A stretch of DNA of 64,000 bases from Thermanaeromonas toyohensis ToBE (GCF_900176005.1 NZ_LT838272.1:2499587-2563586); one strand, 5' to 3'; numbered from the stretch's first letter, positions 7,696 to 23,828 are shown. Notes: generated from the letters alone by a model not told the origin. Translations and numbers: made by a program.

Positions 7696-7959
7696 TCACC
7701 ACACCCACTCTTCGCCTCCCTTTCTAACTCCTATTATCTCCCGTCGGGTGTACCGTTGGCTCCCTAAGACGTAAAAGAGAATAGAATCTTCTTCCCGGTC
7801 GATGATGCGCTCAAGCTCCATTTTAAGTTTCCTGAAGCTTGCCTCCGTGAGCTCTCCTTCCAACACCGAGTTCTGCACCCAGTGCAGATACTTGCGGGCA
7901 GTCTTTAGCACTTTGGATACCCGGGCTACGTTTACATCGTACACCAGAATCACATACAA
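7696..7959 (-). CDS. cas2: CRISPR adaptation protein Cas2
   Basis: Cas2 is the dimeric core of the Cas1-Cas2 integrase that inserts new spacers. At 87 residues it has the expected size, and the N terminus MYVILVYDVNVARVSKVLK holds the family's first strand with its conserved Asp (YDV), followed by the helix containing HWVQNSVLEGEL. It begins 5 bp after the cas1 stop, in the order cas4-cas1-cas2 usual for type I-B. Confidence 0.95.
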   Translation of the reverse strand: MYVILVYDVNVARVSKVLKTARKYLHWVQNSVLEGELTEASFRKLKMELERIIDREEDSILFYVLGSQRYTRREIIGVRKGGEEWVW

Positions 7960-7964
7960 CTGCC

Positions 7965-8975
7965 CTACATCCTTCCTATTACCAACGGCTCACAAAGGGT
8001 ATATAGACTTCTTCGCCTAATTAAGTGTTTCTCTAACTTGTAGAGCTCTAGCCGCAAACAGGTCTGATAGCTCACGTTTCGCTTAAGGCGCCGGTGGTAA
8101 AAGGTGCTCTGAAGTTTGGCTTCAAATTCCTCTACATAGGTCCTACGGCCTTGCTCTTTCAAGAACACTCCTCCACCGTGCCGTTCAAAATCATTAGGGC
8201 CAATCATTCTTTTACCCACTAAGGAAAAAAGGACCCTATCCGCCAGAATCGGCTTAAAGATCTCGGCCATATCTAAGTTTAACGTAAACCGCCGGAAGTT
8301 AGTGGCATGGAGAAAGCCTATCCGTGGGTCAAGATGTGTCTTGTAGATCTCGGTGAGCATCTTAGTGTACACTAAGGAATTTCCAAAACTTATCAGGGCA
8401 TTCAAAGGATCAGCTGGCGGACGCTTAGAGCGCCCATCGATAACAAAGGGACAGCCCTCCAAAATAACGTTAAAGCTCTCATAATAATAGTTACGGGCGT
8501 TTCCTTCTATAGCCATCAACTCTTCTATGGTATGGCAGCTAGCCAGACCCGAACGGTTAAACTCGTCTATAGCCTCGAGATAATGGGCGATCTCTTTGCC
8601 CCGGTTAGCATAGTAACGTAAGACTTGTATAATGTTGGCCAGGCTTCCTGCTACAAACTGACGGGCCAGAAATAGGCGTTTCTCGGCGTCAAGATAGTGC
8701 TCAGCCTGTTTTAAGACCATGTAGCCAGAATTATAATGCTCTCGTGGATAGAAGCTTCCGATGTAGTGTCCATGATAATCAAAAAAGTGCAGGATAATCT
8801 CGTGTTGGTGAAAGAATTCCAAGAGTTTTTTATTGAGGTCTACCTCCCCAAAAACGTAGATATCCCGGATGTTCTCCACTGGAAAATACTTCACTTGCTC
8901 CTCTGTTTCCACACAGACAGTGTTCTCTTTGCGGCGCAAGCGTCCGCTGGCAAAAAGATAGAGGGTCTTTTGCAT
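7965..8975 (-). CDS. cas1: CRISPR adaptation integrase Cas1
   Basis: Cas1 is the catalytic subunit of the spacer integrase. The ORF could start at a GTG at 9023, but the protein then has 16 extra residues; the ATG at 8975 gives MQKTLYLFASGRLRRKENT, the normal family start, with AAAAGGGTG upstream. The metal-binding residues are in place: Glu157 in AIEGNARNYYYESF, His223 in GFLHATNFRRF, and Asp235/Glu238 in LDMAEIFKP. The protein is 336 residues and looks intact. Confidence 0.96.
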   Translation of the reverse strand: MQKTLYLFASGRLRRKENTVCVETEEQVKYFPVENIRDIYVFGEVDLNKKLLEFFHQHEIILHFFDYHGHYIGSFYPREHYNSGYMVLKQAEHYLDAEKRLFLARQFVAGSLANIIQVLRYYANRGKEIAHYLEAIDEFNRSGLASCHTIEELMAIEGNARNYYYESFNVILEGCPFVIDGRSKRPPADPLNALISFGNSLVYTKMLTEIYKTHLDPRIGFLHATNFRRFTLNLDMAEIFKPILADRVLFSLVGKRMIGPNDFERHGGGVFLKEQGRRTYVEEFEAKLQSTFYHRRLKRNVSYQTCLRLELYKLEKHLIRRRSLYTLCEPLVIGRM

Positions 8976-9032
8976 AAACTTACGCACCCTTTTCTCGTAG
9001 GCTTTGCTCTGCCAATAATTCACAGTGACTAC

Positions 9033-9551
9033 CTAGGCCCAGCAGAACTCGTTATAAGCGCACTTGCCGCAAAACTTTCCCCTTTCCGGTTGCGGTGGCA
9101 GAGGCTGATAAATGAGGGCCCAGATTTTCTTCTTAAGCCCCTCTATTTCCTTTTCTAGATCCTCATCAAGAATAACAGGCTCCCGGTAGCGTTCCTCTGG
9201 AAACAGAAGCTCGCCTTCGGCCTCAATTCCCATTCTTTTCAGTTCATACAGATAAAAGCCAAGCTGCAGGCGCGCAGCTCCTGAGGCACGTGAACTCTTC
9301 TTCACTTCAGCTACTACCAAGGTTTTACCTTCTCGGCGGATAAGATCGAGGGCCAGATGCCCTAAATGTAGCTCCTTCCGCTCCCGTGCATAAGCCTGGC
9401 TCTGTATGAGCCGGCCGAGCTGCAGATATACATTATCCTCGTCGGGGGTGACCTGCCTAGACATTAGCCAAGCCTGCCTGGGACATATACTATAGGCCTG
9501 GACCAGGCTGCCCACTATAGTAGCTTCTTCTGTAACTCTAGGTTCTTCCAT
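9033..9551 (-). CDS. cas4: CRISPR adaptation nuclease Cas4
   Basis: Cas4 is a RecB-type nuclease with an iron-sulfur cluster that trims prespacers and selects for the PAM. All key residues are visible: Cys23 near the N terminus (SICPRQ), Asp69 and the Glu82-x-Lys84 pair of the RecB core, and the C-terminal Cys161-x2-Cys164-x5-Cys170 cluster that closes the FeS site. The length of 172 residues is typical. cas1 follows after a short gap. Confidence 0.94.
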   Translation of the reverse strand: MEEPRVTEEATIVGSLVQAYSICPRQAWLMSRQVTPDEDNVYLQLGRLIQSQAYARERKELHLGHLALDLIRREGKTLVVAEVKKSSRASGAARLQLGFYLYELKRMGIEAEGELLFPEERYREPVILDEDLEKEIEGLKKKIWALIYQPLPPQPERGKFCGKCAYNEFCWA

Positions 9552-9714
9552 ACAAGATACCCTACCTTTCTTTTAGTCCTTTGGGAGATTAACGTCTGTT
9601 CTCCTTAAAGTGCATATCGCGCTAAGCTAGGAGGAAAGTACGTACTTCTTCGCTAAAAACTGACTGCTCATAGCCTAGGCTGAATACGCGCTAGCCCCAA
9701 GGAACTATATAGTC

Positions 9715-10467
9715 TTATCCTCCTTCTACTCCTACCAATTCACAACATCCAAAACCCTGAGAGTTCTTGCCACCCAATCCTGCATCCAGGGCCACTTCTA
9801 AAAGCTGAGGATCGCCTTGTAAACGATAAATACCCATCCATCCTTTTATGATAGTACCCTTGTACTTCACAATCTTAAAATCCTTTTCGCTAACGCTCAA
9901 AGGCTCTATAGAAAACCCTTCCTGTTCAGCCTGGCGACCAAAAATCAGCCAATATTTTTTGGTTAGATTAGCCAAAATCAATTCCTGGAAGCGAGGCTCA
10001 AAGGGAGAATAATAGTGGGTATAACGGTACTCTGAATCAACTAGGGTGCTATACACCGTTAGGGGAGAAAGCATCCGCACTACTATGTTTCTTCCTTGGA
10101 CCACTTGGTCAGTTGCCGTCACCTTGTCCACCTGGAGGAGTTCTTTGCCCAGCCGGATGTATCCCTGCTTTAGAAGGCCGCTAGCTACTTCCTGTAATAT
10201 GATGGCCAGAGGTGAACAAATAACAACGTTTATAGGGGGCGAAAACAGCATGTATCCTTGTCGAGGAGCAACCCTCACTTTCCCCATAAGCCGTGAGAAG
10301 GTAAAAAGTTTAAATTTTCGCTTACCTAGCTCAAAGCCTTGCTCATGCAGAAAATTGCGCAGCGCCGGCTGCTCAATTTGCTAGTAGATAGCAGCCTGCA
10401 ACAGATAATTGTGATCTATGGGCAAAACTATGTCGGATAGGCTAGACAAGGTAACGTTGATGCGCAA
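9715..10467 (-). pseudogene. cas6: cas6 crRNA endoribonuclease, interrupted by an in-frame amber codon
   Basis: Cas6 cuts the CRISPR transcript within the repeats. The reading frame starts at TTG 10467 (LRINVTLSSLSDIVLPIDHN, a typical Cas6 N terminus) and would give 250 residues. It contains one TAG, codon 29, at 10381-10383, with no frame change: ...LLQAAIY, stop, QIEQPALRNFLHEQGF... The putative catalytic His41 (in LHEQGF) is downstream of the stop. The next usable ATG (10287) would give a 190-residue fragment lacking that His. The C-terminal glycine-rich loop GLGGKNSQGFG is intact. Either a recent nonsense mutation, readthrough, or a base error; conservation downstream argues against long decay. 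Confidence 0.85.
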
Positions 10468-11247: not shown

Positions 11248-14200
11248 GTTTCCAGCCTACCTATGAGGGATTGAAACCTTTTTCTTTCAGCCACTCCACT
11301 GATATAGTTCCTTTCTTGTTTCCAGCCTACCTATGAGGGATTGAAACTCCTAATCATAATGGAAAGGTTCTGCTCTAACTCCGGTTTCCAGCCTACCTAT
11401 GAGGGATTGAAACGCATAGAAAAGTCCCACTACACGAGCCAAATCCCACGTTTCCAGCCTACCTATGAGGGATTGAAACAGCTTTTCTATAATATCCTTA
11501 GAAGAAGGCATATCCGTTTCCAGCCTACCTATGAGGGATTGAAACCCTTTAGCTTTTTTCTTTAGCCACTCCACCGAAATAGTGTTTCCAGCCTACCTAT
11601 GAGGGATTGAAACTAATATTTCCTCCAAAAATCAGGGTCGTCACTGAACGTTTCCAGCCTACCTATGAGGGATTGAAACGCCATTCTTTCACCCCCTTAT
11701 CCAGCTTTAGCTACCGTGTTTCCAGCCTACCTATGAGGGATTGAAACTGCTTACTCCCAAGACAGGAGAGGCTATCCGTGTTAGTTTCCAGCCTACCTAT
11801 GAGGGATTGAAACGACTTTATCTTTAGCAGCATCAATACCAGCAGAAACAGTTTCCAGCCTACCTATGAGGGATTGAAACGGAAGTTGCAGAAAGAGCGC
11901 ATGAGGCTATCCAAAGGTTTCCAGCCTACCTATGAGGGATTGAAACAAAGAGAGGCTTATAAGGGTGGTAGGTCTGAGTGTTTCTTCATGTTTTCCAGCC
12001 TACCTATGAGGGATTGAAACAATCCCAGCTAGGATTACTAAGAACATCAGACCAACGTTTCCAGCCTACCTATGAGGGATTGAAACGTGTGGATAGCTAA
12101 GATTTCAAGAGATTTTCTAAGAGGTTTCCAGCCTACCTATGAGGGATTGAAACCCAAATAGTCCGTTTGCTAGTTTTGATGTTAGCGCTTTGTTTCCAGC
12201 CTACCTATGAGGGATTGAAACTTGGGTGGAGAGCTTGTAATGTGTAGATTTAGGGGTGTTTCCAGCCTACCTATGAGGGATTGAAACGAGAAGGAAGGAT
12301 ATGTAGAAATCCTTTTGATTAGTTTCCAGCCTACCTATGAGGGATTGAAACTTTAAGTCAGCTATCTTACGACGCAACTGTTCTTCGGTTGTTTCCAGCC
12401 TACCTATGAGGGATTGAAACGCCGACGGCTCGGACTGCTATGGATAATTCCATAACGTTTCCAGCCTACCTATGAGGGATTGAAACCACTAGAGAAGGTA
12501 GCCAGTACTGTTAGGTCCAGAAGAAGTTTCCAGCCTACCTATGAGGGATTGAAACCCCATAGGGTCCGCAAGCTCCTTGACGGCTGGACCAGGTTTCCAG
12601 CCTACCTATGAGGGATTGAAACGTTATATCGGTTGCCTCTCTAAGTAGCTGTATATTGGGTTTCCAGCCTACCTATGAGGGATTGAAACTTCCTGGGCTG
12701 GTGACTATGTTAGTTATATCGGTTGTTTCCAGCCTACCTATGAGGGATTGAAACTGTCCAGGGTCCTCGTCACGTCTGGGACCTTTGTCCCGTTTCCAGC
12801 CTACCTATGAGGGATTGAAACAACTAGCACAGAGCATAAGTGAGGATAAGCCAGTAGTAGTTTCCAGCCTACCTATGAGGGATTGAAACCCTTAACCCCT
12901 GCGCTCCCTGGGGGACTGGTAGAGTTTCCAGCCTACCTATGAGGGATTGAAACGTAATCGCCCCATGTCTCGTCCGGTTGTGCTTTGACGTTTCCAGCCT
13001 ACCTATGAGGGATTGAAACAGGAGCGCAACAACGCCACAGCCATTTCAAGTACCAGTTTCCAGCCTACCTATGAGGGATTGAAACGTTGTGGGAAGACGG
13101 CTACCCGAAGCTTACCTTTCCGTTTCCAGCCTACCTATGAGGGATTGAAACTGCTTTGACTATGGGTAGCCAGTCGGTGTTTCCTGGTTTCCAGCCTACC
13201 TATGAGGGATTGAAACCCTCCTTGCCGCAAGCTCCAGCATTGCTGCCCGAAATTCGTTTCCAGCCTACCTATGAGGGATTGAAACGTTTAGTAATATTTA
13301 GGGACTTGTTTGAGAGAGCAAAGTTTCCAGCCTACCTATGAGGGATTGAAACGGTCATAAACAGCATCTACAATATGCACTTCCCCACGTTTCCAGCCTA
13401 CCTATGAGGGATTGAAACTCTCTTAAGCACCTTCAGCCTTTCTATGTTCTTATACGTTTCCAGCCTACCTATGAGGGATTGAAACCCTCATATATCGCCG
13501 CACCATCTACCTGCTCAATCATGCGTTTCCAGCCTACCTATGAGGGATTGAAACACTGCTGTTTTAAGTATTTCAACGTCCCGCCTGCAAGTTTCCAGCC
13601 TACCTATGAGGGATTGAAACCATTATGTCCAATCCGGTCATCTCCACCGCCTCACTTGTTTCCAGCCTACCTATGAGGGATTGAAACTCAATTACCCGGC
13701 TTTCGGAATCCATATAAACCACCAGTTTCCAGCCTACCTATGAGGGATTGAAACCTACGGCTTCATTGAAAGCGTCACGGCCGGAATTGGTTTCCAGCCT
13801 ACCTATGAGGGATTGAAACGATTAAGGGTACACCTTTAGGGATTAGAAAGCAAGAGTTTCCAGCCTACCTATGAGGGATTGAAACGGCTTTATTTCACTC
13901 CCCACCCTACTAAGGGTAAGGGGTTTCCAGCCTACCTATGAGGGATTGAAACGGGGTTAACGCCAACCCAAACTGACTGCACCCAATGGTTTCCAGCCTA
14001 CCTATGAGGGATTGAAACACAAGTCATTGTCGAACTACCGTGCCAAGAAGTGAGGTTTCCAGCCTACCTATGAGGGATTGAAACTGATCAGGACCATACC
14101 GCATGACCAACACCGTTATCCGTTTCCAGCCTACCTATGAGGGATTGAAACGATGGACAGGGATGGTAGCGTGTTGCACCGTGTAAGGTTTCCAGCCTAC

Positions 14201-15609
14201 CTATGAGGGATTGAAACGGGCCTCTGACCATTAAAGCCCCTACAGCGTACGTAAGGTTTCCAGCCTACCTATGAGGGATTGAAACGATGGACAGGGATGG
14301 TAGCGTGTTGCACCGTGTAAGGTTTCCAGCCTACCTATGAGGGATTGAAACGGGAAATGATTATGGAGGTAAACCGTAAATACCAAAGTTTCCAGCCTAC
14401 CTATGAGGGATTGAAACACGCTTCTATCTTCTGCTGTTGCGTCATTCCCTTTAGTTTCCAGCCTACCTATGAGGGATTGAAACCATTAACAACACGTCGA
14501 AACCCTGGAATTTACAAAGGGTTTCCAGCCTACCTATGAGGGATTGAAACACGTAATTCATACCCTCACAACCCCATTATTGCCTCGTTTCCAGCCTACC
14601 TATGAGGGATTGAAACGTTTGTGGTCCAAGTGGACGACCTTGACAGTGCCGGTTTCCAGCCTACCTATGAGGGATTGAAACATGTAATGTACCAGTGGGC
14701 GGTAGAGGAGCAGGCGGGTTTCCAGCCTACCTATGAGGGATTGAAACAACTTGAACCAGAACTCGGTCAAGCGCTCGGTGTCGGTTTCCAGCCTACCTAT
14801 GAGGGATTGAAACCATTTTTACAATGAATTTTTCCGCTGGTGCTACATGCGGTTTCCAGCCTACCTATGAGGGATTGAAACCCTATTGGCCATATCTATT
14901 AGCCTGGCCCTATAATAGTTTCCAGCCTACCTATGAGGGATTGAAACCGGAAAAACAGATAAACCAGTGCTATTCCAGCATTGCACGTTTCTAGCCTACC
15001 TATGAGGGATTGAAACGATTTTGATGCGTGTGAAGTCATAATTCCTATGCATGAGTTTCTAGCCTACCTATGAGGGATTGAAACCCTGAGTCCAGTAGCC
15101 AAAAACATCCTCTTCCCACCAGTTTCTAGCCTACCTATGAGGGATTGAAACGCAAGGCGAATGGTTATGCACCTTGACCCTGCCCACAGTTTCTAGCCTA
15201 CCTATGAGGGATTGAAACCTCTAAGAGGTCATAGGGCTGTAGTAGAGTTATTTTAGTTTCTAGCCTACCTATGAGGGATTGAAACATTACAGGCTTTAGC
15301 AGTGGGCTTAACCGTTTTACAAGTTTCCAGCCTACCTATGAGGGATTGAAACAGATGTATGAAGGCGCGGTTATTCCTGCTGGTGTGCTTGTTTCCAGCC
15401 TACCTATGAGGGATTGAAACCCGTAAAACCCCAAAACACTAGCTGCTACGCATACTAGTTTCCAGCCTACCTATGAGGGATTGAAACGTAGGTTTTCCAG
15501 CAATAGGGAGTGGGTAGTATGCTGGTTTCCAGCCTACCTATGAGGGATTGAAACTACCAGGAGGCTCGGGAGTTTTTTGATGAGTTAGCTTGTTTCCAGC
15601 CTACCTATG
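11248..15609 (+). CRISPR. CRISPR array, about 66 repeats of 30 nt, type I-B
   Basis: The 30-base repeat runs GTTTCCAGCCTACC, then TATGAGG, then GATTGAAAC. I count 65 full copies plus a truncated last copy (15592-15609, first 18 bases only). Spacers are mostly 34-40 bases, one is 44 (11947-11990). The ATTGAAAC end gives the 5' handle of crRNA, so the transcript reads left to right and the leader is on the left; the degenerate last repeat at the right agrees. Repeat 12 (11991) has T for G at position 1; repeats 57-61 (14987-15285) have T for C at position 6. Spacers following repeats 44 and 46 are identical. Confidence 0.99.
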
Positions 15610-15790
15610 GGGATGATTACATATCACCCCACGTTCAGTTGCCCATCAAAATCTGGAAATTACCCAAAGTGGGGGAACATGACAATCTAAAGCGGAAATT
15701 TGCTACCGAAGTGGAGGGAAAATGTAAGATAGACCAATGATATCACCAGCAAACCCAGGTGTAGCAAGGATTTCCAGGCAACCCACCAAA
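15592..15790 (+). repeat. Copy A of a ~180-bp inverted element, abutting the truncated last CRISPR repeat
   Basis: After the first 18 bases of the last CRISPR repeat the sequence changes at 15609 into an element that recurs, diverged and inverted, at 21786-21966. It opens with a 22-base hairpin-like block (GGGGATGATTACATATCACC and two more bases, 15609-15630), followed by shared stretches such as AAATCTGGAAAT, GTGGGGGAACAT, GAAGTGGAGGGAAAATG and GTAGCAAGG. It looks like the end of a mobile element. The rest of the gap to 15905 holds no gene that I can see. Confidence 0.75.
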
Positions 15791-15905
15791 TCATCTTGAT
15801 TGCAATCCGTGTTAACATGAAGTAAGTAAATTTAGGTGGCTGGATGATACCTCCATTCTCAGGCTTAGCAAGACTTTATTAGCACCTCACCCGTTAAGAG
15901 TAAAA

Positions 15906-16688
15906 TCATAGATGTTCTTCTCTTTGCTGTATAATTTCCTTTTTCGTTCTATAGTCTCCTGGAAACCACGAGTAGGTTGGTAAGAGTGGAAGCTTCAAAT
16001 AAACATCTCTGAATTCATTATAATCGTATCTTGAAAAATATGTAATGTCATACAATCTTAAATCAGGGGGAGAATAATTGTCGATTGTCATTACATATCC
16101 AAAAGGAGGAAACTTAATTTCGGAAAATATATAAATTGTTTTCGTCAAAAAGTTAAGCTTTCCTTGGAAACCACCTATCCTCGCCCATCTTCCTTCGGGG
16201 TTAAGGTATACGAAAATACGATATTTTTCCAAGTTAATATATTTACGTTTGGGGTTTAATACAAAGCTTACAAGCTCTGAGTTCCTTTCAGCAAAATCAG
16301 GATTGTTGACTGAAAAGAACATGGTGATAATTTGTTTCAAAACCCTAAGAGGAAAAATCCAAAAGGGATAATATAAAGTAGGTTTTCCTCCTGCTTTACT
16401 AAGCAACTGAAAACCTTGACGACACCAATCTGCAAAAGCCTTTCCGTACCAAGCTCCTGTATTGTTATTGCATCGTGGACAGAGTGTATAACCTCCCATC
16501 CCCTTCGGCATAGGCTGTCCCTTAGATTTTACTTCGTCATCGGGACCAACATTTAAAAGATCGAAGACCCTATAGAGGACAGTAGGATGGTCATTGAAGG
16601 CAGATCTTGGGGGAATATGCTCAAACGTCAATTTTCCTACTATTCCACAAATATGGCACTTGCCATAAACTTTTCGTCGTCTACTCAT
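15906..16688 (-). CDS. HNH endonuclease-like protein
   Basis: The N-terminal third is a treble-clef HNH fold: Cys11-x2-Cys14, then LTFEHIPPRSAF with the Glu-His pair at 23-24, and CPRCNNNTGAWYG with Cys70 and Cys73. The remaining 180 residues are not recognised and would be the specificity or partner domain. HNH proteins of this kind are common in phage defence loci. It stands alone, with about 140 bp to the next gene on the same strand, and A+T content here is higher than in the housekeeping part of the window, which fits acquisition. The target is unknown. Confidence 0.75.
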   Translation of the reverse strand: MSRRRKVYGKCHICGIVGKLTFEHIPPRSAFNDHPTVLYRVFDLLNVGPDDEVKSKGQPMPKGMGGYTLCPRCNNNTGAWYGKAFADWCRQGFQLLSKAGGKPTLYYPFWIFPLRVLKQIITMFFSVNNPDFAERNSELVSFVLNPKRKYINLEKYRIFVYLNPEGRWARIGGFQGKLNFLTKTIYIFSEIKFPPFGYVMTIDNYSPPDLRLYDITYFSRYDYNEFRDVYLKLPLLPTYSWFPGDYRTKKEIIQQREEHL

Positions 16689-16829
16689 AGTACCCCCACT
16701 TTAAATTCTTGTCCAAATGGTTTAATTTTCTCTCCCTTTCTCTTGGTTCCTACCATGCCATAACTTAAGTTTATTTATCAATGAGTCCGACACTCTTCAC
16801 AACCTTAATCTTTTTTCTATCACACGATG

Positions 16830-17381
16830 TTACTGCCATAAAATATCCCAATTGTTAAGGTATTTGCGTAGCCTCTCTTGATATTCAACCACATTGAGTT
16901 TTCTTACTTTATTGTTTGGATCGTGGGGGCGGCCATTCTTACCTGGGCTTTCCACCCATCTCTTAAAATCCTCTTCTAACCAAGTATTCACCTCATTAGT
17001 GGGTATGATATAAAACTCTAGATTTTTTACATCCATAGACAAATTAACCAAAATAACAAAATCGTCATCTTGGCTTATGTCTCTGAACACTTTACCATCC
17101 TTTTTCGCAAGGAAATGCCAGCCTGGATTTTCCTCAGACTTAGTTTTCACCCTGATCTTTACAGTGCGGCCGTCATGCGTAGCTAGAACGTCAAAGGACG
17201 GGGCATTTCTAGGTGCCAGTGCGGCAATTATACCACGCTTTAACAATTCAGCACTACATAATATTCGCCAGCATTTCCAATTAGCGTTCCCTGGCCTGCC
17301 TTGACTTTTCCTTTCAACCCACTCACCCTCCGTTATAAAGCAAACTATCCCAAAAACCTTTACAAAAACTTTCCTTTCCAC
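16830..17381 (-). CDS. Possible PD-(D/E)xK nuclease-like protein
   Basis: A protein of about 183 residues that I cannot name. The stretch SFDVLATHDGRTVKIRVKTK (about residues 62-81) resembles the core of a PD-(D/E)xK nuclease, Asp followed by a strand ending in x-x-K, although the second acidic residue is replaced (Arg-Val-Lys), so activity is doubtful. FVILVNLSMDVKNLEFYIIPTNEV further on looks like the following strands. Its place among HNH nucleases suggests a defence role. The start is uncertain; the first 20 residues may not be translated. Confidence 0.55.
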   Translation of the reverse strand: MERKVFVKVFGIVCFITEGEWVERKSQGRPGNANWKCWRILCSAELLKRGIIAALAPRNAPSFDVLATHDGRTVKIRVKTKSEENPGWHFLAKKDGKVFRDISQDDDFVILVNLSMDVKNLEFYIIPTNEVNTWLEEDFKRWVESPGKNGRPHDPNNKVRKLNVVEYQERLRKYLNNWDILWQ

Positions 17382-17442
17382 CTCCTGGTGGTCGAGATGG
17401 TTCTACTTCTTATCCCACCAGGGAGGGGATTTTCTGCTTTAG

Positions 17443-17511
17443 ATATAACCCAGCTCGTGCTTAAGCTCGGCTTCAAGCATTTCTCGGATAAGCTGGCTGA
17501 ATAAGTCTTTA
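17443..17511 (-). pseudogene. Fragment of an IS256/mutator-type transposase N terminus
   Basis: The minus strand reads KDLFSQLIREMLEAELKHEL followed by GYI and a stop. The pattern of LIREMLEAELKHELGY resembles the segment near the N terminus of IS256-family transposases (typically ...MLEAEMxEHLGYE). Nothing else of the transposase remains on either side. I take it as a relic of a former insertion; the match is short, so this is tentative. Confidence 0.45.
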
Positions 17512-17542
17512 CTGCTTTAGGCATATTCTGATAACCCACGTT

Positions 17543-18454
17543 TCATTTTAATTTTCCTCGAAAAACCATTTTATTGTGATAAGTCAGAGCCTCTTTAGAT
17601 GGGTATTTTGTGGGATCCTCCGGCAAGTAGATAGCCCTATTTCTGTAACAATTATAATCTGATGAACTCAATTGGTCACTAATTCTAACCTTATACTCTG
17701 TATCTATTGTAATTAGGCCCAAATCAAATAGCCTATGTAAGTCCACTCTAAGTGGGATTCCGTTCTGAACATGGTTACTATTTTCGTTAATATATGGTTG
17801 TATGTGTGCAGCCTCTATGATCTCAAGGCATGTTTCTCCTGATATACAGCATTTATATCCATATGCTTCTAAAACTTGTTGCCTAAATTGACTTTGTCCG
17901 GAACGATCTTTTGATTTGCTAATTCGGTAATTTACCCCTGTATTATCTTCGACTAAATGAAAAGACTGACGGAGATTTAAATGATTTCTTATAGCATAGC
18001 CAGGAAAATCTTCTGTAAAAGTTTTAAACTTAACAATAGAAGAAGGAACGGGTTTTTGATATCTCTCAGGTTCGAAGAATTCGTCATCGTTAAAGAACAC
18101 AGGTTTTTCGATGATAATGCATCCAATCAGTGGATTATTTGAGTAAATATATCTATTTGAATTACGGCTCGCATAGTCATTGATTTTTTTAACAAGTATA
18201 GAAAAATCTGGAACCCCATTTGCCTTACCGAACTTTTCCCATGCATCTCTAGCAGACATTTCATCATAATAACCAAAATAACCATATCCGCCAATTCTTC
18301 TAATAGGAGACTTAAGCAAGAAGTAAAATTTTTCACCAGGTTTAAGCTTTCTAAATCTCCACGGTGTAGGTGTCCAAAAGTTAACTTCATCAAAGGTGAA
18401 CTCTCTCAAGTAGAAAAACCAGTCCAAATCAGTCATAGCAATTGCTATCATCAT
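17543..18454 (-). CDS. HNH endonuclease with PUA/EVE-like N-terminal domain (putative modification-dependent restriction enzyme)
   Basis: The N-terminal half matches the family that begins DLDWFFYLREF...DEVNFWTPTPWRF...LKPGEKFYFLLKSPIRRIGGYGYFGYY and continues with AWEKFGKANG and IGCIIIEKPVFF, a PUA/EVE-like fold thought to read modified bases. The C-terminal half is an HNH_2-type nuclease: CCISGETCLEIIEAAHIQPY, NGIPLRVDLHRLFDLGLITID. Together this suggests a type IV restriction enzyme against phage DNA with modified bases (inference). About 303 residues from the ATG at 18454, which follows AGGGGTG; the open frame could begin two codons earlier. Confidence 0.8.
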   Translation of the reverse strand: MMIAIAMTDLDWFFYLREFTFDEVNFWTPTPWRFRKLKPGEKFYFLLKSPIRRIGGYGYFGYYDEMSARDAWEKFGKANGVPDFSILVKKINDYASRNSNRYIYSNNPLIGCIIIEKPVFFNDDEFFEPERYQKPVPSSIVKFKTFTEDFPGYAIRNHLNLRQSFHLVEDNTGVNYRISKSKDRSGQSQFRQQVLEAYGYKCCISGETCLEIIEAAHIQPYINENSNHVQNGIPLRVDLHRLFDLGLITIDTEYKVRISDQLSSSDYNCYRNRAIYLPEDPTKYPSKEALTYHNKMVFRGKLK

Positions 18455-18507
18455 TAACACCCCTAACGTTATATAATAACCTTCGTTTTTTTATACGCCT
18501 ATTACTG

Positions 18508-18675
18508 CTCATTTTTAATAAACCCCATGAAGACTTCCGTAGTCCTTTTAAAAGTGCTTTAAGGTAATAAACTAGACTAAACTTTATCCCCAGCCTCCTT
18601 ACCCACTACCTCCGGAGTTGACCGACGTTATCAAGTAGGCTCCGCCTCCTGCTCCCGGAGGACTTGCTCCTCGGG
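18508..18675 (-). pseudogene. Decayed second copy of the 3' end of the family B DNA polymerase gene
   Basis: On the minus strand this gap can be read as EEQVLREQE, then (after frame changes) LLDNVGQLRR, stop, WVRRLGIKF and LLKGLRKSSWGLLK. The intact polymerase at 20189-21730 ends EEQVLQEQE...LLDKVAHPRRGWARRLGISY...LLKGTKKPSSRLMH. The order and spacing agree, so this is a diverged, non-coding duplicate with stops and indels. It fills most of the 330-base gap between two HNH genes; the remainder holds nothing I can recognise. Confidence 0.75.
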
Positions 18676-18783
18676 AACTTCGCCGAGCTAGCAGTATTAA
18701 TTATTAACAGTATCTCGATCTATTAGGTGATATTTTGGATTGGTTATCGATTAAGAATGTCATCTCAGGAGAGGAAGAATACG

Positions 18784-19581
18784 TCAACTTTCACACCTTG
18801 AACTGAGGTCCTCAGCGATACACCGCTTAAGTGTTTCAATATCTTCAGGATCGTCCACTATATGCATTTTCCTATGGCAGTTGGGACAAAGGGCTACGGT
18901 ATTATCAATACTGTCTTTCCCACCCCGTGACAACCATATAATGTGATGAGTTTCTAAATAAGGTTCATGGCATCTTCCCTTAGCTCTACGTTTGGCATAT
19001 TCAGCCACGTACTGGTTTCTTTCGTAGACTTTTGTTATTACTTGTCGCTCTCCAGGGGTTCCGCTACTTATTGCTGCTCTTTCTTGTAATTCGTTTTCAC
19101 TTAATTTCCTAGCTTGTTTTTTACGATGTTCTTCCTTATGCTGGAGATATTCACAAGGTACATAAACAGGTGGACCATCAAGGATTTTGAGTGGAAATAC
19201 CCATACAATCCTCATATTTCCATCAATATCTGTTTGGTATGTCTGGTAAGGCTCTCCTGCTAGTTTAACTCTGCCTTGATAAAAATATCTTCCCTTCTCG
19301 AATACTTCAAATAAGTGAACTTCCACTCCATTTGATTTGGAATTAGCTAGTATAGCATTTGCCATAAAGTCGAGACTTTGGTTTCCCCGTAACCCCATAC
19401 CTGTGTAATGAAAAATATCTCCAACCCATTTATCCTCATATATTCCTTTTGTATGATCAGATATAAGTACCAAGCAATTTGTACGTTTAGAAAAACGCAT
19501 ACCTCCCCGAGTACCACATTTCTCTCGTAACCTATTATTACTAATAACTTCACCTTTTCTCAAAGGGATTGTAATACCCAT
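18784..19581 (-). CDS. HNH endonuclease with SRA/YDG-like N-terminal domain (McrA-like)
   Basis: The N-terminal part (GDIFHYTGMGLRGNQSL, NGVEVHLFEVFEKGRYFYQG, MRIVWVFPLKIL) matches the SRA/YDG-like DNA-reading domain of modification-dependent restriction enzymes; the C terminus is an HNH nuclease (YLETHHIIWLSRGGKDSIDNTVALCPNCHRKMHI). Compared with the usual family layout, the first zinc knuckle is shortened: GRC is followed directly by HEPYLETHH, so one Cys of the CxxC pair and roughly a dozen residues appear to be missing, in frame. Activity is therefore uncertain. Its ATG lies 3 bp after the stop of the Nudix gene, so the two are cotranscribed. Confidence 0.78.
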   Translation of the reverse strand: MGITIPLRKGEVISNNRLREKCGTRGGMRFSKRTNCLVLISDHTKGIYEDKWVGDIFHYTGMGLRGNQSLDFMANAILANSKSNGVEVHLFEVFEKGRYFYQGRVKLAGEPYQTYQTDIDGNMRIVWVFPLKILDGPPVYVPCEYLQHKEEHRKKQARKLSENELQERAAISSGTPGERQVITKVYERNQYVAEYAKRRAKGRCHEPYLETHHIIWLSRGGKDSIDNTVALCPNCHRKMHIVDDPEDIETLKRCIAEDLSSRCES

Positions 19582-19583
19582 GG

Positions 19584-19997
19584 TTATACCCTTTTCTCCT
19601 TCATAAGTTTTTCTACAATAGGCAAGTCCGCAGGAACGAACTCTAACAAATTAAGCTCTGCCAGATTAACCCATCTAATTTCATCATGCACATAGGGTAT
19701 AATAGTGCCGCTAACCCAATCCGCTAAAAAGGCTAGTAATTCTATGGAAATATGCTCGTAATCATATGCTGAGGTACAAATCAGGTCTCCAACCCGAATT
19801 TTTATACCTAACTCTTCTAACACTTCTCGTTCAAGGCATGACTCTGGGGTCTCCCCTTTTTCAATTTTCCCTCCAGGAAATTCCCACTTAAACGCTAATT
19901 TGTCTCCAGCAGGCCGCCGACATACTAACACTTTCCCATTCTTCTTGATCACTGCTGCTGCAACTTTAACCCTACTGCTAGATCTCTTATTATCCAT
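19584..19997 (-). CDS. Nudix hydrolase, MutT-like
   Basis: A complete Nudix box is visible: GGKIEKGETPESCLEREVLEELG (about residues 43-65), matching G-x5-E-x7-R-E-u-x-E-E-x-G-u. Length (137 residues) and the flanking RRPAGDKLAFKWEFPG fit the 8-oxo-dGTP/(5-methyl)CTP pyrophosphohydrolase group. It is directly followed by the McrA-like HNH gene with 2 bp between them. I infer a shared unit in which the hydrolase may clean modified or oxidised nucleotides, but the substrate cannot be told from sequence. Confidence 0.88.
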   Translation of the reverse strand: MDNKRSSSRVKVAAAVIKKNGKVLVCRRPAGDKLAFKWEFPGGKIEKGETPESCLEREVLEELGIKIRVGDLICTSAYDYEHISIELLAFLADWVSGTIIPYVHDEIRWVNLAELNLLEFVPADLPIVEKLMKEKRV

Positions 19998-20188
19998 AAG
20001 TCAATAAACACTTCCTAACCAAAGGTTTATACTTCGCAACAGACTATAAAGCCAACTTTCATGACAATCTATAATCTCTTGCTTTCTTACAACAGTAACT
20101 TGCAACGAATTATCGTTCGAAGATCAAATAAGAGATAACCTATATTTGTCAAACAAGACTTTCTATACCCTAGTGCCGTTCGATAAAC

Positions 20189-21730
20189 TCAGCAGAATTC
20201 CGTAGTTGCAAGCTTCTCAATCACGTGATGCATTAGTCTACTCGACGGTTTCTTTGTTCCCTTAAGAAGCATTTTAAGATGCTGATAGCTTATCCCCAAT
20301 CTTCTCGCCCACCCCCTCCGAGGGTGAGCAACCTTATCAAGCAGCCTCCGCAGTTCTTCCCAAGTTACGTTACTATTGGTATTCGCCTCATAGGTAACCC
20401 TTTCCTGCTCCTGGAGAACCTGTTCCTCCACCAGGTTATCAAGGAACGAGTCAGCTTCCTTCCCAATGTACTTAATCCACTTCGCCAAGACGTGGCAAGG
20501 TTTGAGCCTGCCAACAATGGTTTCGCCGCATGGCTGGCCATCCTCACCATCATACTTAGCTTCAGGATGGTTGATGTGCTTCTTTATGAAGTCTCCATAT
20601 GTCCGCACAACCACCTCAGCCCGCTTTTCATCCTCCGGCTGAAGGGTTGGATGAGGTTCAAGGGATGGAGTACAGTATTTATGCCAAGCCTCATCCTCAG
20701 TCAAGAACGCCAATGGCTGCCCGGTTGTTTTGTCTTGCCAATCAAAAGCCCGCCAGTTCTCCAATGAATCATAAGGAGCTACCGGAACCAAGGGAGTATT
20801 GGCAAGGCAAGATTTACTATACCTACAGGCTGATTTTATTCGACATATCCCTTCTTTTTCCTTCTTTTCCACCCGGCAGTAATAAGGTTCAACCGTTTTC
20901 TGGGGAAATAAGGCCTCAGCAAGGAAAGCCACCACCATAAAGTTGAAGGGCTTTACTTTCTTAAGGTAATCCTCAATCCAAGGGCTTCCTTTAGGTGGTT
21001 TCCCCTGGCGGAAAAGGTTGTAGGTGTAAGGCTTGCCGATGGTGAACCTGGCCATTGCCGGCTGGCCAAACCACTCCGGCTCAGGCGGATCTTCCTTTAG
21101 CACTTCCCGCCTTATGTGGTACTCCCAGCAAGCCCTGACGAGGTCCCCTTTCTTGCCTGTAGGAGGAGAGGAGAGGTGGCCCAGCCCATGCTCGGAAAGC
21201 TTGCGGAACACGATTTTGCCGCCGGGAAGCAGGTTGAACAGGCAATACCTTTTGGCCGCTACCGCATAGCAGTAAAGAGGATGATATTCGCCTTCAACAA
21301 TATTGCCCTTGTCGGTGTCCCTATCCCAGTCAACCCGCCGCCAGTTGTACTCCTCGGCAGCAAGGAGGGAGCCTTCCCCCTCGTAAGGCCAGAGGCTCCT
21401 GAACTTCTCCACAACCTTCCGGCCAATCAAATTAGGGCGGTCGCTTTGGAGATCGTATATGCACAGGGAGTCCGTATCGCAGAAGACATAATCTCCTCCC
21501 AGATCCTGTATAACCCGTTGGATCATGGCTAAAATCAACCTTGCCGCTCCTGTAATCATCACGGCAATAAGGGGGTTATAGTAAAATCCTTCATTCTCAT
21601 AAACATCAGTCTCCACATGGAAGCACTCGTCCCCTGAGTAAACTGTGAGTAATCCTTCTTCATCTTTCTCGCGGTTAAGCTCTATGAATATGCCGTAGGA
21701 CGTGGAGTTAGCCAGTATTTTCAGGAACAT
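20189..21730 (-). pseudogene. C-terminal half of a family B DNA polymerase (5'-truncated gene)
   Basis: The 513 residues start at the motif B helix (LKILANSTSYG) and contain motif C, YVFCDTDSLCIYD, the catalytic DTDS of family B polymerases. The frame stays open upstream to about 21,803 (EKPPDFSCPELVKAKGDEN), then meets a TAG and the inverted element B. Motif A and the proofreading exonuclease are therefore missing. Downstream of the palm lie a four-cysteine segment (C-x10-C-x6-C-x6-C) and a C-terminal HTH-like end (RRGWARRLGISYQHLKMLLKG). Such polymerases belong to mobile elements, viruses or plasmids; this copy cannot polymerise on its own. Confidence 0.75.
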
Positions 21731-21785
21731 CTGGAGGGCATCGTTCTCATCTCCCTTGGCCTTAACCAGCTCTGGGCAAGAGAAG

Positions 21786-21966
21786 TCTGGTGGTTTTTCG
21801 GGGATGCCTTGCTACCCTGGGCTTGGCGGTACTACCATTAGTCTACCTTGCATTTTCCCTCCACTTCGCTGGCAAAAAACTACCCTTGCAGATTATGTTC
21901 CCCCACTTCTGCTGATTTCCAGATTTTGATAGGCAATTGGACGAGGGGTGATGTGTAATCATCCCC
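21786..21966 (-). repeat. Copy B of the ~180-bp inverted element, at the 5' break of the polymerase gene
   Basis: This is the inverted partner of copy A (15609-15790). Shared blocks in the plus direction here are CATTTTCCCTCCACTTCG, ATGTTCCCCCACTT, ATTTCCAGATTTTGAT and the terminal GGGGTGATGTGTAATCATCC (21945 onward, ending 21966). Small substitutions and indels separate the copies, so they are old. The copy ends in a short imperfect hairpin (GGGGTGAT/ATCATCCCC). It joins directly onto the truncated polymerase frame. Confidence 0.75.
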
Positions 21967-21969
21967 TTG

Positions 21970-21981
21970 CAGCCTACCTAT
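21970..21981 (+). repeat. CRISPR repeat fragment outside the island
   Basis: The 12 bases CAGCCTACCTAT are identical to bases 6-17 of the CRISPR repeat, in the same orientation as the array, yet lie 6.4 kb beyond it and 3 bases outside element B. The other outer boundary of the island (15592-15609) is also a partial repeat. The match is short but its position makes chance unlikely. Confidence 0.55.
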
Positions 21982-22004
21982 AGCTACCTAATATTAACGT
22001 ATAA

Positions 22005-22082: not shown

Positions 22083-23828
22083 TTATCTCCCGGGCCACAT
22101 CACTACCTGCTGCCTACTTTCCACCCATCCCACCTCATAACCCAAGACCTCGGCCACATACCTGGCCGGCAAAAAAACGCGCCCTTCCCTTTCAACAGGG
22201 GCCACATCCAGAGGCTTAATCTGCCCATCTACCTTTATCTTTTTCTCCCCCAACCGCAACACTATAGTATGGTCTTGGGAAGAAATTTTTACCAAACGCT
22301 CTTGCTCATCCCAAAGAATACCTTCTCCTGGTACTCCTAAGGATTGGGCCAAAAACCTTAAGGGTATAAAACTACGTCCTCCCTCAACAAAAGGCGCTAC
22401 ATCCATCTCCTTTACCTCGCCCCTACAGGTATAGCTTTTCTCACCTAAAGTGAAGACCGCTACCGGGATACCCCCTCCTTCTATCAGGTAGGTTCGCCTA
22501 AAGGCTTCCCTCTCCTGGCTATCAAAAACCTTAACTTCAAGGGATGATGGCCCATAGGCCCGGCTAAAATCAAACCTGGCCAGGTAAGGAGGAAGGCTAG
22601 CTTGGGCTACAAGCATACCATCAAGATAGTACTGCACCCGGCTGATAAAGGGATCATAAATCTTGGCATAAGCCCCAAGGATAACCTCGCCTTGAAGTTT
22701 CTCGCCTTCTCTTAGCTCCTGGTAAAAAGGAGCCGGGCTGCTCTGGCCAATCTTTTCCAGGTAATAAGGACTAGCTATAGCTTCCCGGTAAGCCCTCAAT
22801 ATCTCTTCTTTATCGCTCAGACGGTAGTCGCTCACTTTAGCCTGGGTATAGAGAGGGTCGCTTTCATCGAGATCTAAATACACAACAGCTTTAACGCGGG
22901 GGTAAAGCAGGGGCAAGGTATTATAAAACTTGCGGATATAGTTAGCCGCCCACCAGCTTACATCCTCCCGGTAAGGCTTAAGGGTCGTATGCGCGATCCC
23001 GAACTCCCCCACCATAAGGGGCTTGCGGGTGAAAAACACGCGGTACCAGTAATCCAAACGCTGCAAGGGATCTATCCCCGCGCCGGGCTGATCTACCTGG
23101 CCACTCAAATAGTAGTCGCTGTAGAAATTTACTCCCACCCAGTCCACGTAGGCATCTCCCGGATAATAGGAAAGGGCGGTGGCCTTAACCCCTTCGGGCT
23201 GTACTATATCAAAGAGATTCCATACCATGGCTACATTAGGGGCGTATTCCCGTATAATAGAAGCAACCTTACGGAACCAAAAAACATATTTCTGGGGGTC
23301 GCCATGCCACTGATTAGTGCCCTCCATATTCATCTCCGAGGCAAAGCGCAGGAACACCGGTATTTTTAAATCCCCCAACTGTCTAGCCACGGCTACAATA
23401 TCTTCTTCCTTTAACTTATCCAAGCCGCAATTTGGCTCCAGGGCCAGGACTAGCCCGGCTCCTGGGACCTCCTGCACCTTATGTATGGTATCCCAAGGCA
23501 AAAATACCTCTCCCGCCCCATAGATATGGGCATAGCTTAAGAAGAGGGCGTGCTGTTTGCCATACAGGTTTTTTACCTGGCTATAATCGTACCTGGCCTG
23601 CCCGCGCTCTTCATAAAGCCCTAAATAAGCGCCACTAGGAGGCTCAAACTTGGCTAAAGCAGGGATACCTCCTGTCTCTGCCTGGTAAAAAAGGCGTACT
23701 ACAGGTCGCAACGCTTCTCCTCGTGCCGTCTCCCTCCAGGCCCAGTCAGGCTTGCCTGCCTGCTCAAAAAGGGTGGCCTCTTTACCATAAGCCTCTCCTG
23801 CCTCGATGTCTTCCCCTGGTGCTCGCAA
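22083..23828 (-). CDS. GH26-like glycoside hydrolase with C-terminal copper-amine-oxidase-N-type domains (downstream part of a frameshifted gene)
   Basis: A (beta/alpha)8 glycosidase resembling family 26 (mannanase-type): acid/base Glu in FLRFASEMN and nucleophile Glu in LMVGEFGIAH, with WHGDPQKYVFWFRKV between. The C-terminal 130 residues are two copies of the copper amine oxidase N-terminal type fold (SFIPLRFLAQSLGV, VFLPARYVAEVLGY), in Clostridia usually a wall- or sugar-binding module. No signal peptide is in this frame; it is in the overlapping frame upstream (to 24088). The nominal TTG start lacks a ribosome site, so I read the two frames as one broken gene. The polysaccharide substrate is unknown. 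Confidence 0.75.
   Translation of the reverse strand: MRAPGEDIEAGEAYGKEATLFEQAGKPDWAWRETARGEALRPVVRLFYQAETGGIPALAKFEPPSGAYLGLYEERGQARYDYSQVKNLYGKQHALFLSYAHIYGAGEVFLPWDTIHKVQEVPGAGLVLALEPNCGLDKLKEEDIVAVARQLGDLKIPVFLRFASEMNMEGTNQWHGDPQKYVFWFRKVASIIREYAPNVAMVWNLFDIVQPEGVKATALSYYPGDAYVDWVGVNFYSDYYLSGQVDQPGAGIDPLQRLDYWYRVFFTRKPLMVGEFGIAHTTLKPYREDVSWWAANYIRKFYNTLPLLYPRVKAVVYLDLDESDPLYTQAKVSDYRLSDKEEILRAYREAIASPYYLEKIGQSSPAPFYQELREGEKLQGEVILGAYAKIYDPFISRVQYYLDGMLVAQASLPPYLARFDFSRAYGPSSLEVKVFDSQEREAFRRTYLIEGGGIPVAVFTLGEKSYTCRGEVKEMDVAPFVEGGRSFIPLRFLAQSLGVPGEGILWDEQERLVKISSQDHTIVLRLGEKKIKVDGQIKPLDVAPVEREGRVFLPARYVAEVLGYEVGWVESRQQVVMWPGR

Follow-up and report, generated by a model that had tools for sequence, protein, structure and literature searches.

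The CRISPR array in the DNA analysed here (a stretch of 64,000 nucleotides from Thermanaeromonas toyohensis ToBE, referred to as the window) is followed at its trailer end by a 6358-bp island, located at 15609-21966, which is very probably a transposon of casposon origin, now devoid of cas1, that was inserted by a casposase into the last, truncated CRISPR repeat. That a mobile segment with restriction-type genes occupies the trailing end of the array had been proposed in an earlier note on this DNA, and the ends of the island, the 15-bp duplication that flanks it and the HNH genes within it (Table 1) bear this out. Casposons are already known; what appears to be new, as judged from the open-licence literature, is the insertion into a CRISPR repeat and a Cas1-less derivative of this kind.

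Table 1. Features of the CRISPR locus and of the island, with positions counted from the first nucleotide of the window
Feature	Position	Strand	Remarks
cas6/cas4/cas1/cas2	7696-10287		left of the array; cas6 by Pfam
CRISPR array, type I-B-like	11248-15591	+	65 complete 30-nt repeats GTTTCCAGCCTACCTATGAGGGATTGAAAC; Rfam CRISPR-DR2 matches
Last, truncated repeat, 17 nt	15592-15608	+	GTTTCCAGCCTACCTAT; holds the left target duplication
Left target-site duplication	15594-15608	+	TTCCAGCCTACCTAT, repeat bases 3-17
A, left terminal inverted repeat	15609-15790		starts GGGGATGATTACATATCACCCC, palindromic
ORF, function unassigned, 260 aa	15906-16688	-	no confident family
ORF, function unassigned, 183 aa	16830-17381	-	weak phage-family matches only
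HNH endonuclease	17543-18460	-	PF13391 5e-12; PADLOC HNH 8.5e-25
Degenerate second PolB 3' end (C-terminal HTH)	18528-18690	-	DNA blocks 76-85% identical; stop and frameshift
HNH endonuclease, type IV (modification-dependent) restriction kind	18784-19581	-	PF01844 8e-11; PADLOC mREase_IV 8e-14
NUDIX hydrolase	19584-19997	-	PADLOC candidate defence protein PDC-S07, 2e-49
PolB, C-terminal half, C-terminal HTH	20189-21766	-	casposon-type family B DNA polymerase; frame open to 21811 inside B
B, right terminal inverted repeat	21786-21966		inverted relative to A; PolB palm region within ~20 bp
Right target-site duplication	21967-21981	+	TTGCAGCCTACCTAT, 14/15 against the left copy

Ends of the element and target duplication

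The island is bounded by two copies, A and B, of a ~180-bp sequence in opposite orientation with hairpins at their ends, as the earlier note had described. Alignment of A with the reverse complement of B gave 79% identity over ~183 columns (E 2e-36), and the two are the sole copies in the complete 3.33-Mb genome. Both have the same start, GGGGATGATTACA, at their outer point, and the imperfect palindrome GGGGATGATTACAYATCACCCC is found at the outer end of each. A symmetric cut at the GGGG...CCCC ends leaves a 15-bp target duplication, identical in 14 of the 15 positions and directly abutting A and B. The symmetry of the GGGG ends, the 15-bp duplication and the 6358-bp span thus together define the anatomy of one transposon, with A and B as its terminal inverted repeats. 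Several of its features are those of casposons, i.e., the C-run of the ends, both of which read ...CATCCCC-3', the ~180-bp terminal inverted repeats with palindromic ends and the 15-bp duplication. The divergence between A and B, 21% of positions, exceeds that of most relatives measured.

The earlier note had placed the first 18 bases of a CRISPR repeat just outside A, of which 17 remain as flanking sequence; the element itself also begins with the 18th base, G. On the outer side of B, repeat bases 6-17 are found as claimed, in the same orientation as the array (CAGCCTACCTAT, 21970-21981), and the symmetric cut lengthens this match to 15 bp, of which one is mismatched. A match of at least 14 of 15 bases at two fixed positions has a chance probability of 4e-8. 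The 12-mer itself is expected 0.01 times by chance in the window, and followed by a base other than G, i.e., outside normal repeats, it occurs once genome-wide, beside B.

The search for A and B in related genomes, by which the earlier note had hoped to find full elements, gave no copy in 199 relatives, plasmids or phages. In 398 genomes of the phylum only chance-level matches were obtained, among them one of 22 bp between the end hairpin and locus L157. No sequence match was found between A or B and the nearest casposons, the contigs of which stop short of the casposon ends.

A truncated casposon-type polymerase and the absence of cas1

All genes of the island are read leftward from B, and the first of these, which is also the largest, encodes the polymerase (PolB). 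It harbors the motifs KILANSTSYG and FCDTDSL, a PHROG DNA polymerase match (3e-9) and a C-terminal HTH (phrog_925). The N-terminal ~500 aa are missing, such that B is joined to the palm-encoding region within 21766-21788, and no piece of the missing part is found elsewhere in the 64-kb window. In a structure model built from an alignment of 18 sequences (mean pLDDT 69), the palm region has a fold match (Foldseek probability 1.00) to the family B polymerases of archaea, and the C-terminal end matches the fold of XRE-type HTH domains.

The identity of the island PolB to the polymerases of Desulfotruncus, Syntrophaceae and Desulfosporosinus is 39-47%: 38.6% over 565 columns, i.e., nearly the full length of the fragment, for Desulfotruncus arcticus (locus L165), and 47% over 361 columns for Desulfosporosinus (L163). 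Matches of the fragment to casposon PolBs reach E ~1e-105 to 1e-121, and in a tree it groups with the polymerases of L163-L165 with a support of 100/100. The island PolB is a truncated, but casposon-type polymerase; the element thus encodes the family B DNA polymerase of a casposon, in the form of a truncated gene.

A query with the conserved PolB core against 84,980 species genomes yielded 22 loci, 21 of which hold a PolB relative, in 16 cases with cas1 in the same locus (confirmed by PF01867, E up to 1e-41, in the four loci scanned by Pfam). Among the five loci that hold PolB without cas1, four are truncated by a contig end close to the polymerase gene, and only L170 retains long flanks to the left and right of polB. 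Searches of the species genomes with less conserved PolB peptides, as well as searches of viral contigs, gave no further finding.

No match to Cas1 was found in the island, so that the stand-alone cas1 (casposase gene) that characterizes a casposon is absent from the element. The only Cas1 of the genome is encoded in the CRISPR operon, and there is no stand-alone cas1. Because neither the island nor the genome provides a casposase of the element's own, either the element decayed, with the loss of cas1 following its insertion, or its mobilisation relied on a cas1 supplied in trans. In Methanosarcina mazei, which harbors a casposon of its own, a mini-casposon has been reported to enter the genome (PMC10359463).

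Cargo genes and a second polymerase tail

PolB and the inverted repeats have a higher GC content (0.45-0.50) than the cargo (0.35-0.41). The HNH protein encoded at 17543-18460 resembles restriction endonucleases that bind phosphorothioated DNA (NF045808, 3.5e-18, which is below the cut-off), and that encoded at 18784-19581 matches phrog_15103 (9e-68) and has relatives on viral contigs. Compared with the ORFs of the casposon loci, the two HNH genes gave a weak match (best E 0.008), and neither is clearly the HNH nuclease of the casposon core. The NUDIX and type IV-like HNH genes (18784-19997) are a candidate two-gene defence unit, and the cargo may work in defence. Genes of these two kinds are recurrent neighbours, as they also adjoin in the viral-contig loci L089 and L090, and are apparently fused in L092.

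The degenerate second PolB 3' end has a GC content of 0.50, i.e., similar to that of PolB and unlike that of the surrounding cargo. It is situated between the HNH genes, such that the NUDIX-HNH pair is flanked by direct repeats of the PolB tail. The possibility that this second HTH tail is a remnant of the C-terminus of Cas1 found no support; the tail is a copy of the PolB 3' end at the DNA level, and the nearest Cas1 (L165) ends in a zinc-binding-like sequence.

The insertion site in the CRISPR array

The leader side of the array, together with the cas genes, is located to the left and the trailer to the right. The sequence that follows the right duplication is AGCTACC instead of GAGGGATTGAAAC, which implies that the last repeat was degenerate already before the insertion. 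A relative (G008, locus L147) has an array that naturally ends in a truncated repeat after the last spacer (GTTCGCAGCCTAC joined to AACAAATAG), with unrelated sequence beyond; a truncated terminal repeat is ordinary for such arrays. The suggestion of the earlier note that a repeat was split or duplicated upon entry therefore holds for the partial duplication (bases 3-17), and a splitting of the right-hand repeat by the island is unneeded.

The empty site would be GTTTCCAGCCTACCTAT joined to AGCTACCTAATATTAACG, and about 20 bp further the next gene has a terminator-like inverted repeat. An array end of the same species that is free of the island would read GTTTCCAGCCTACCTAT followed by AGCTACCTAATATT, and the uninterrupted trailer would read GTTTCCAGCCTACCTATAGCTACCTAATATTAACG. 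An empty site was sought beside the right-hand gene (22083-23828) and none was obtained, the relatives having this gene in other neighbourhoods. By reading, the gene product is glycosidase-like, with a C-terminal repeat domain common to many proteins, and a paralogue that is 83% identical is found elsewhere in the genome, at G000:C1:1677825-1679546.

A comparison of the array spacers with the island and its relatives gave no convincing match. The spacer GATGGACAGGGATGGTAGCGTGTTGCACCGTGTAAG is present twice in the array with one other spacer between (14152-14321), and near the trailer (14986-15285) five consecutive repeats have GTTTCTAGCC for GTTTCCAGCC, after which the common form resumes. In locus L149 of a relative (G014), the same trailer (ATTTAGCACATTAAATTAACC...) follows both of two arrays, i.e., the array end seems to be duplicated. 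A search for structured RNA gave folding z-scores never beyond -1.4 and no meaningful covariation, and the Rfam matches were those to the CRISPR repeats only.

Proposed origin and alternative explanations

Casposase-mediated integration into the terminal repeat is the most likely event. We infer that a casposase, i.e., a stand-alone Cas1 integrase, did the joining; it would have been supplied by a full casposon and would have joined the GGGG...CCCC ends at staggered positions 15 bp apart in the last, already truncated repeat. Repair of the gaps would then have left a copy of repeat bases 3-17 on either side of the element. An internal deletion reaching B may have removed cas1 along with the N-terminal half of PolB, after or before the insertion, and the low-GC cargo, i.e., the NUDIX gene, the two HNH restriction-type nucleases and the two genes of unassigned function, would have been gained; the order of these steps is a presumed one.

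A refinement of this scheme, which is possible, though clearly less probable than a single element, is that two casposons were inserted head-to-tail at one site and that a deletion left A of one and B of the other. The 79% identity of A and B is close to that of the two PolB 3' ends (76-85%), the second of which has the GC content of PolB rather than that of the cargo, and tandem casposons separated by duplications have already been reported (PMC9939771, PMC6563490). However, the second tail could also have arisen by one local duplication of the PolB 3' end, the two ends of one element may diverge, and an internal remnant of the second end pair was sought in the island and not found.

The earlier note had read the island as a composite mobile segment. 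A composite transposon, in which A and B would be short IS-like copies that jointly mobilised the DNA between them, has in its favour the two ~180-bp inverted copies around a gene cluster. This reading is very unlikely, because neither A nor B contains a transposase, no further copy is found in the genome or in the relatives, plasmids and phages searched, A and B are unlike the IS21 elements of these genomes, and the PolB is of the casposon type; A and B are instead the terminal inverted repeats of one element. IS21-like ends were considered for similar-looking motifs such as GTGGGGGAA and were discarded upon mismatch of A and B with the multi-copy IS21 ends in relatives. Somewhat less improbable, but still unlikely, is that a transposon of another kind, which generates a long duplication (e.g., one of the IS231/IS4-like type), acquired a casposon polB fragment. 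Elements of this type generate duplications of 10-12 bp, IS231 passenger cassettes are known, and cas1 is missing from the island; nevertheless, GGGG/CCCC ends and a ~15-bp duplication fit casposons of the same polymerase family, and no island ORF matches any transposase family. Insertion of the element by the host Cas1-Cas2, as an oversized spacer, is suggested by the cas4-cas1-cas2 cluster that adjoins the array and by the homology of Cas1 and casposases. Cas1-Cas2 integration duplicates the whole repeat, at the leader end, whereas the duplication here is 15 bp within the leader-distal repeat rather than the full 30 nt at the leader end, which makes this explanation as improbable as the composite one. 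Furthermore, 14-15 bp is the spacing of casposases (PMC6977970). Independent entry of A and B into separate repeat copies, followed by a rearrangement that made the island, would account for the repeat-derived sequence that each of them abuts, but is the least credible of these alternatives: the same 15 bp is found on both sides in the same chromosome orientation, the ends are symmetric, A and B point opposite ways, and one insertion suffices.

Implications

Casposases are proposed ancestors of CRISPR Cas1. A casposon target site as the origin of the CRISPR repeat has been suggested (Hickman et al. 2020, PMC6977970). This idea becomes directly testable with a related casposase, given a casposon that inserted naturally into a CRISPR repeat and is flanked by a duplication that can be read. 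A further step, i.e., that the moving casposase accepts CRISPR repeats as true targets and that a lineage of casposons continues to insert into arrays, is doubtful; if true, it would be a present-day parallel to the proposed transition from casposon target sites to CRISPR repeats. The array end as a habitual landing place, as the earlier note had envisaged, is hypothetical: one event is seen here, and none of the target sites of six relatives with readable ends is in a CRISPR array. The island also illustrates that the trailer of an array can take up a cassette of restriction genes while the leader end, at which new spacers are acquired, is left untouched. In the open-licence literature, neither a casposon located within a CRISPR array nor Cas1-less casposon derivatives of this kind were found.

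Comparison with known casposons and related elements

Ends with verifiable inverted repeats could be read in six of the 21 loci that hold a PolB relative (L169, L170, L174, L176, L177 and L183), where they display 14-20-bp duplications and 5'-GGG(G) / CCC(C)-3' ends, mostly of the form GGGGTATAG. The target duplications of L169, L174, L177 and L183 are stem-loop palindromes, e.g., CCTGCTTGCGCAGG and CCCCGGCCTTCGCCGGGG. As few as 0-1.6% of random windows are as stable as the stem-loop sites of these four, compared with 74% for the island site; this casposon clade may, as a rule, target stem-loops. Two of these loci, L169 and L174, are from the genus Henriciella, and we take the abbreviation HenMar-C1 to stand for Henriciella marina. 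HenMar-C1 is a published family 3 casposon (PMC4046053).

Locus L170, from Terriglobia, contains a 6.5-kb casposon-like element (L170:5917-12412) without cas1 and with a shortened PolB, and is an independent Cas1-less case. It is similar to the island in size (~6.4-6.5 kb), in the lack of cas1, in the shortened PolB and in its casposon-like ends with a duplication, but differs in its cargo, in having 36-bp inverted repeats and in being inserted at the 3' end of tRNA-Leu, where its duplication is a perfect 14 bp. Together, L170 and the island indicate a class of Cas1-less casposons.

The nearest bacterial casposons are those of Desulfotruncus arcticus (L165), Syntrophaceae (L164) and Desulfosporosinus (L163, the polymerase only, on a 4-kb contig). 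The island shares the PolB clade with casposons that have both cas1 and PolB, as well as the G-run ends and 14-20-bp duplications of those relatives that can be measured. It is unlike these casposons in its lack of cas1, in its PolB without the N-terminal half, in its cargo and in its location within a CRISPR repeat. In published casposons the duplications have a median of 15 bp and the inverted repeats span 25-602 bp, some with internal palindromes, and the family 2 PolBs have a C-terminal HTH (PMC4046053). The casposase of Aciduliprofundum boonei requires only TCCCC at the 3' end, and the terminal repeat there is palindromic (PMC6614799). The island has in common with the family 2 casposons of A. 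boonei and M. mazei the 14-15-bp duplications, with A. boonei the TCCCC-3' end, and with family 2 the C-terminal HTH on PolB; in those casposons, however, a casposase is present and the sites are tRNA genes, whereas the island has no casposase and is located in an array. Insertion sequences found in CRISPR-Cas loci (PMC10359306) are likewise mobile elements in a CRISPR locus, but the island differs from these in that it is not a DDE element, has no transposase and resides in the array rather than in a cas gene.
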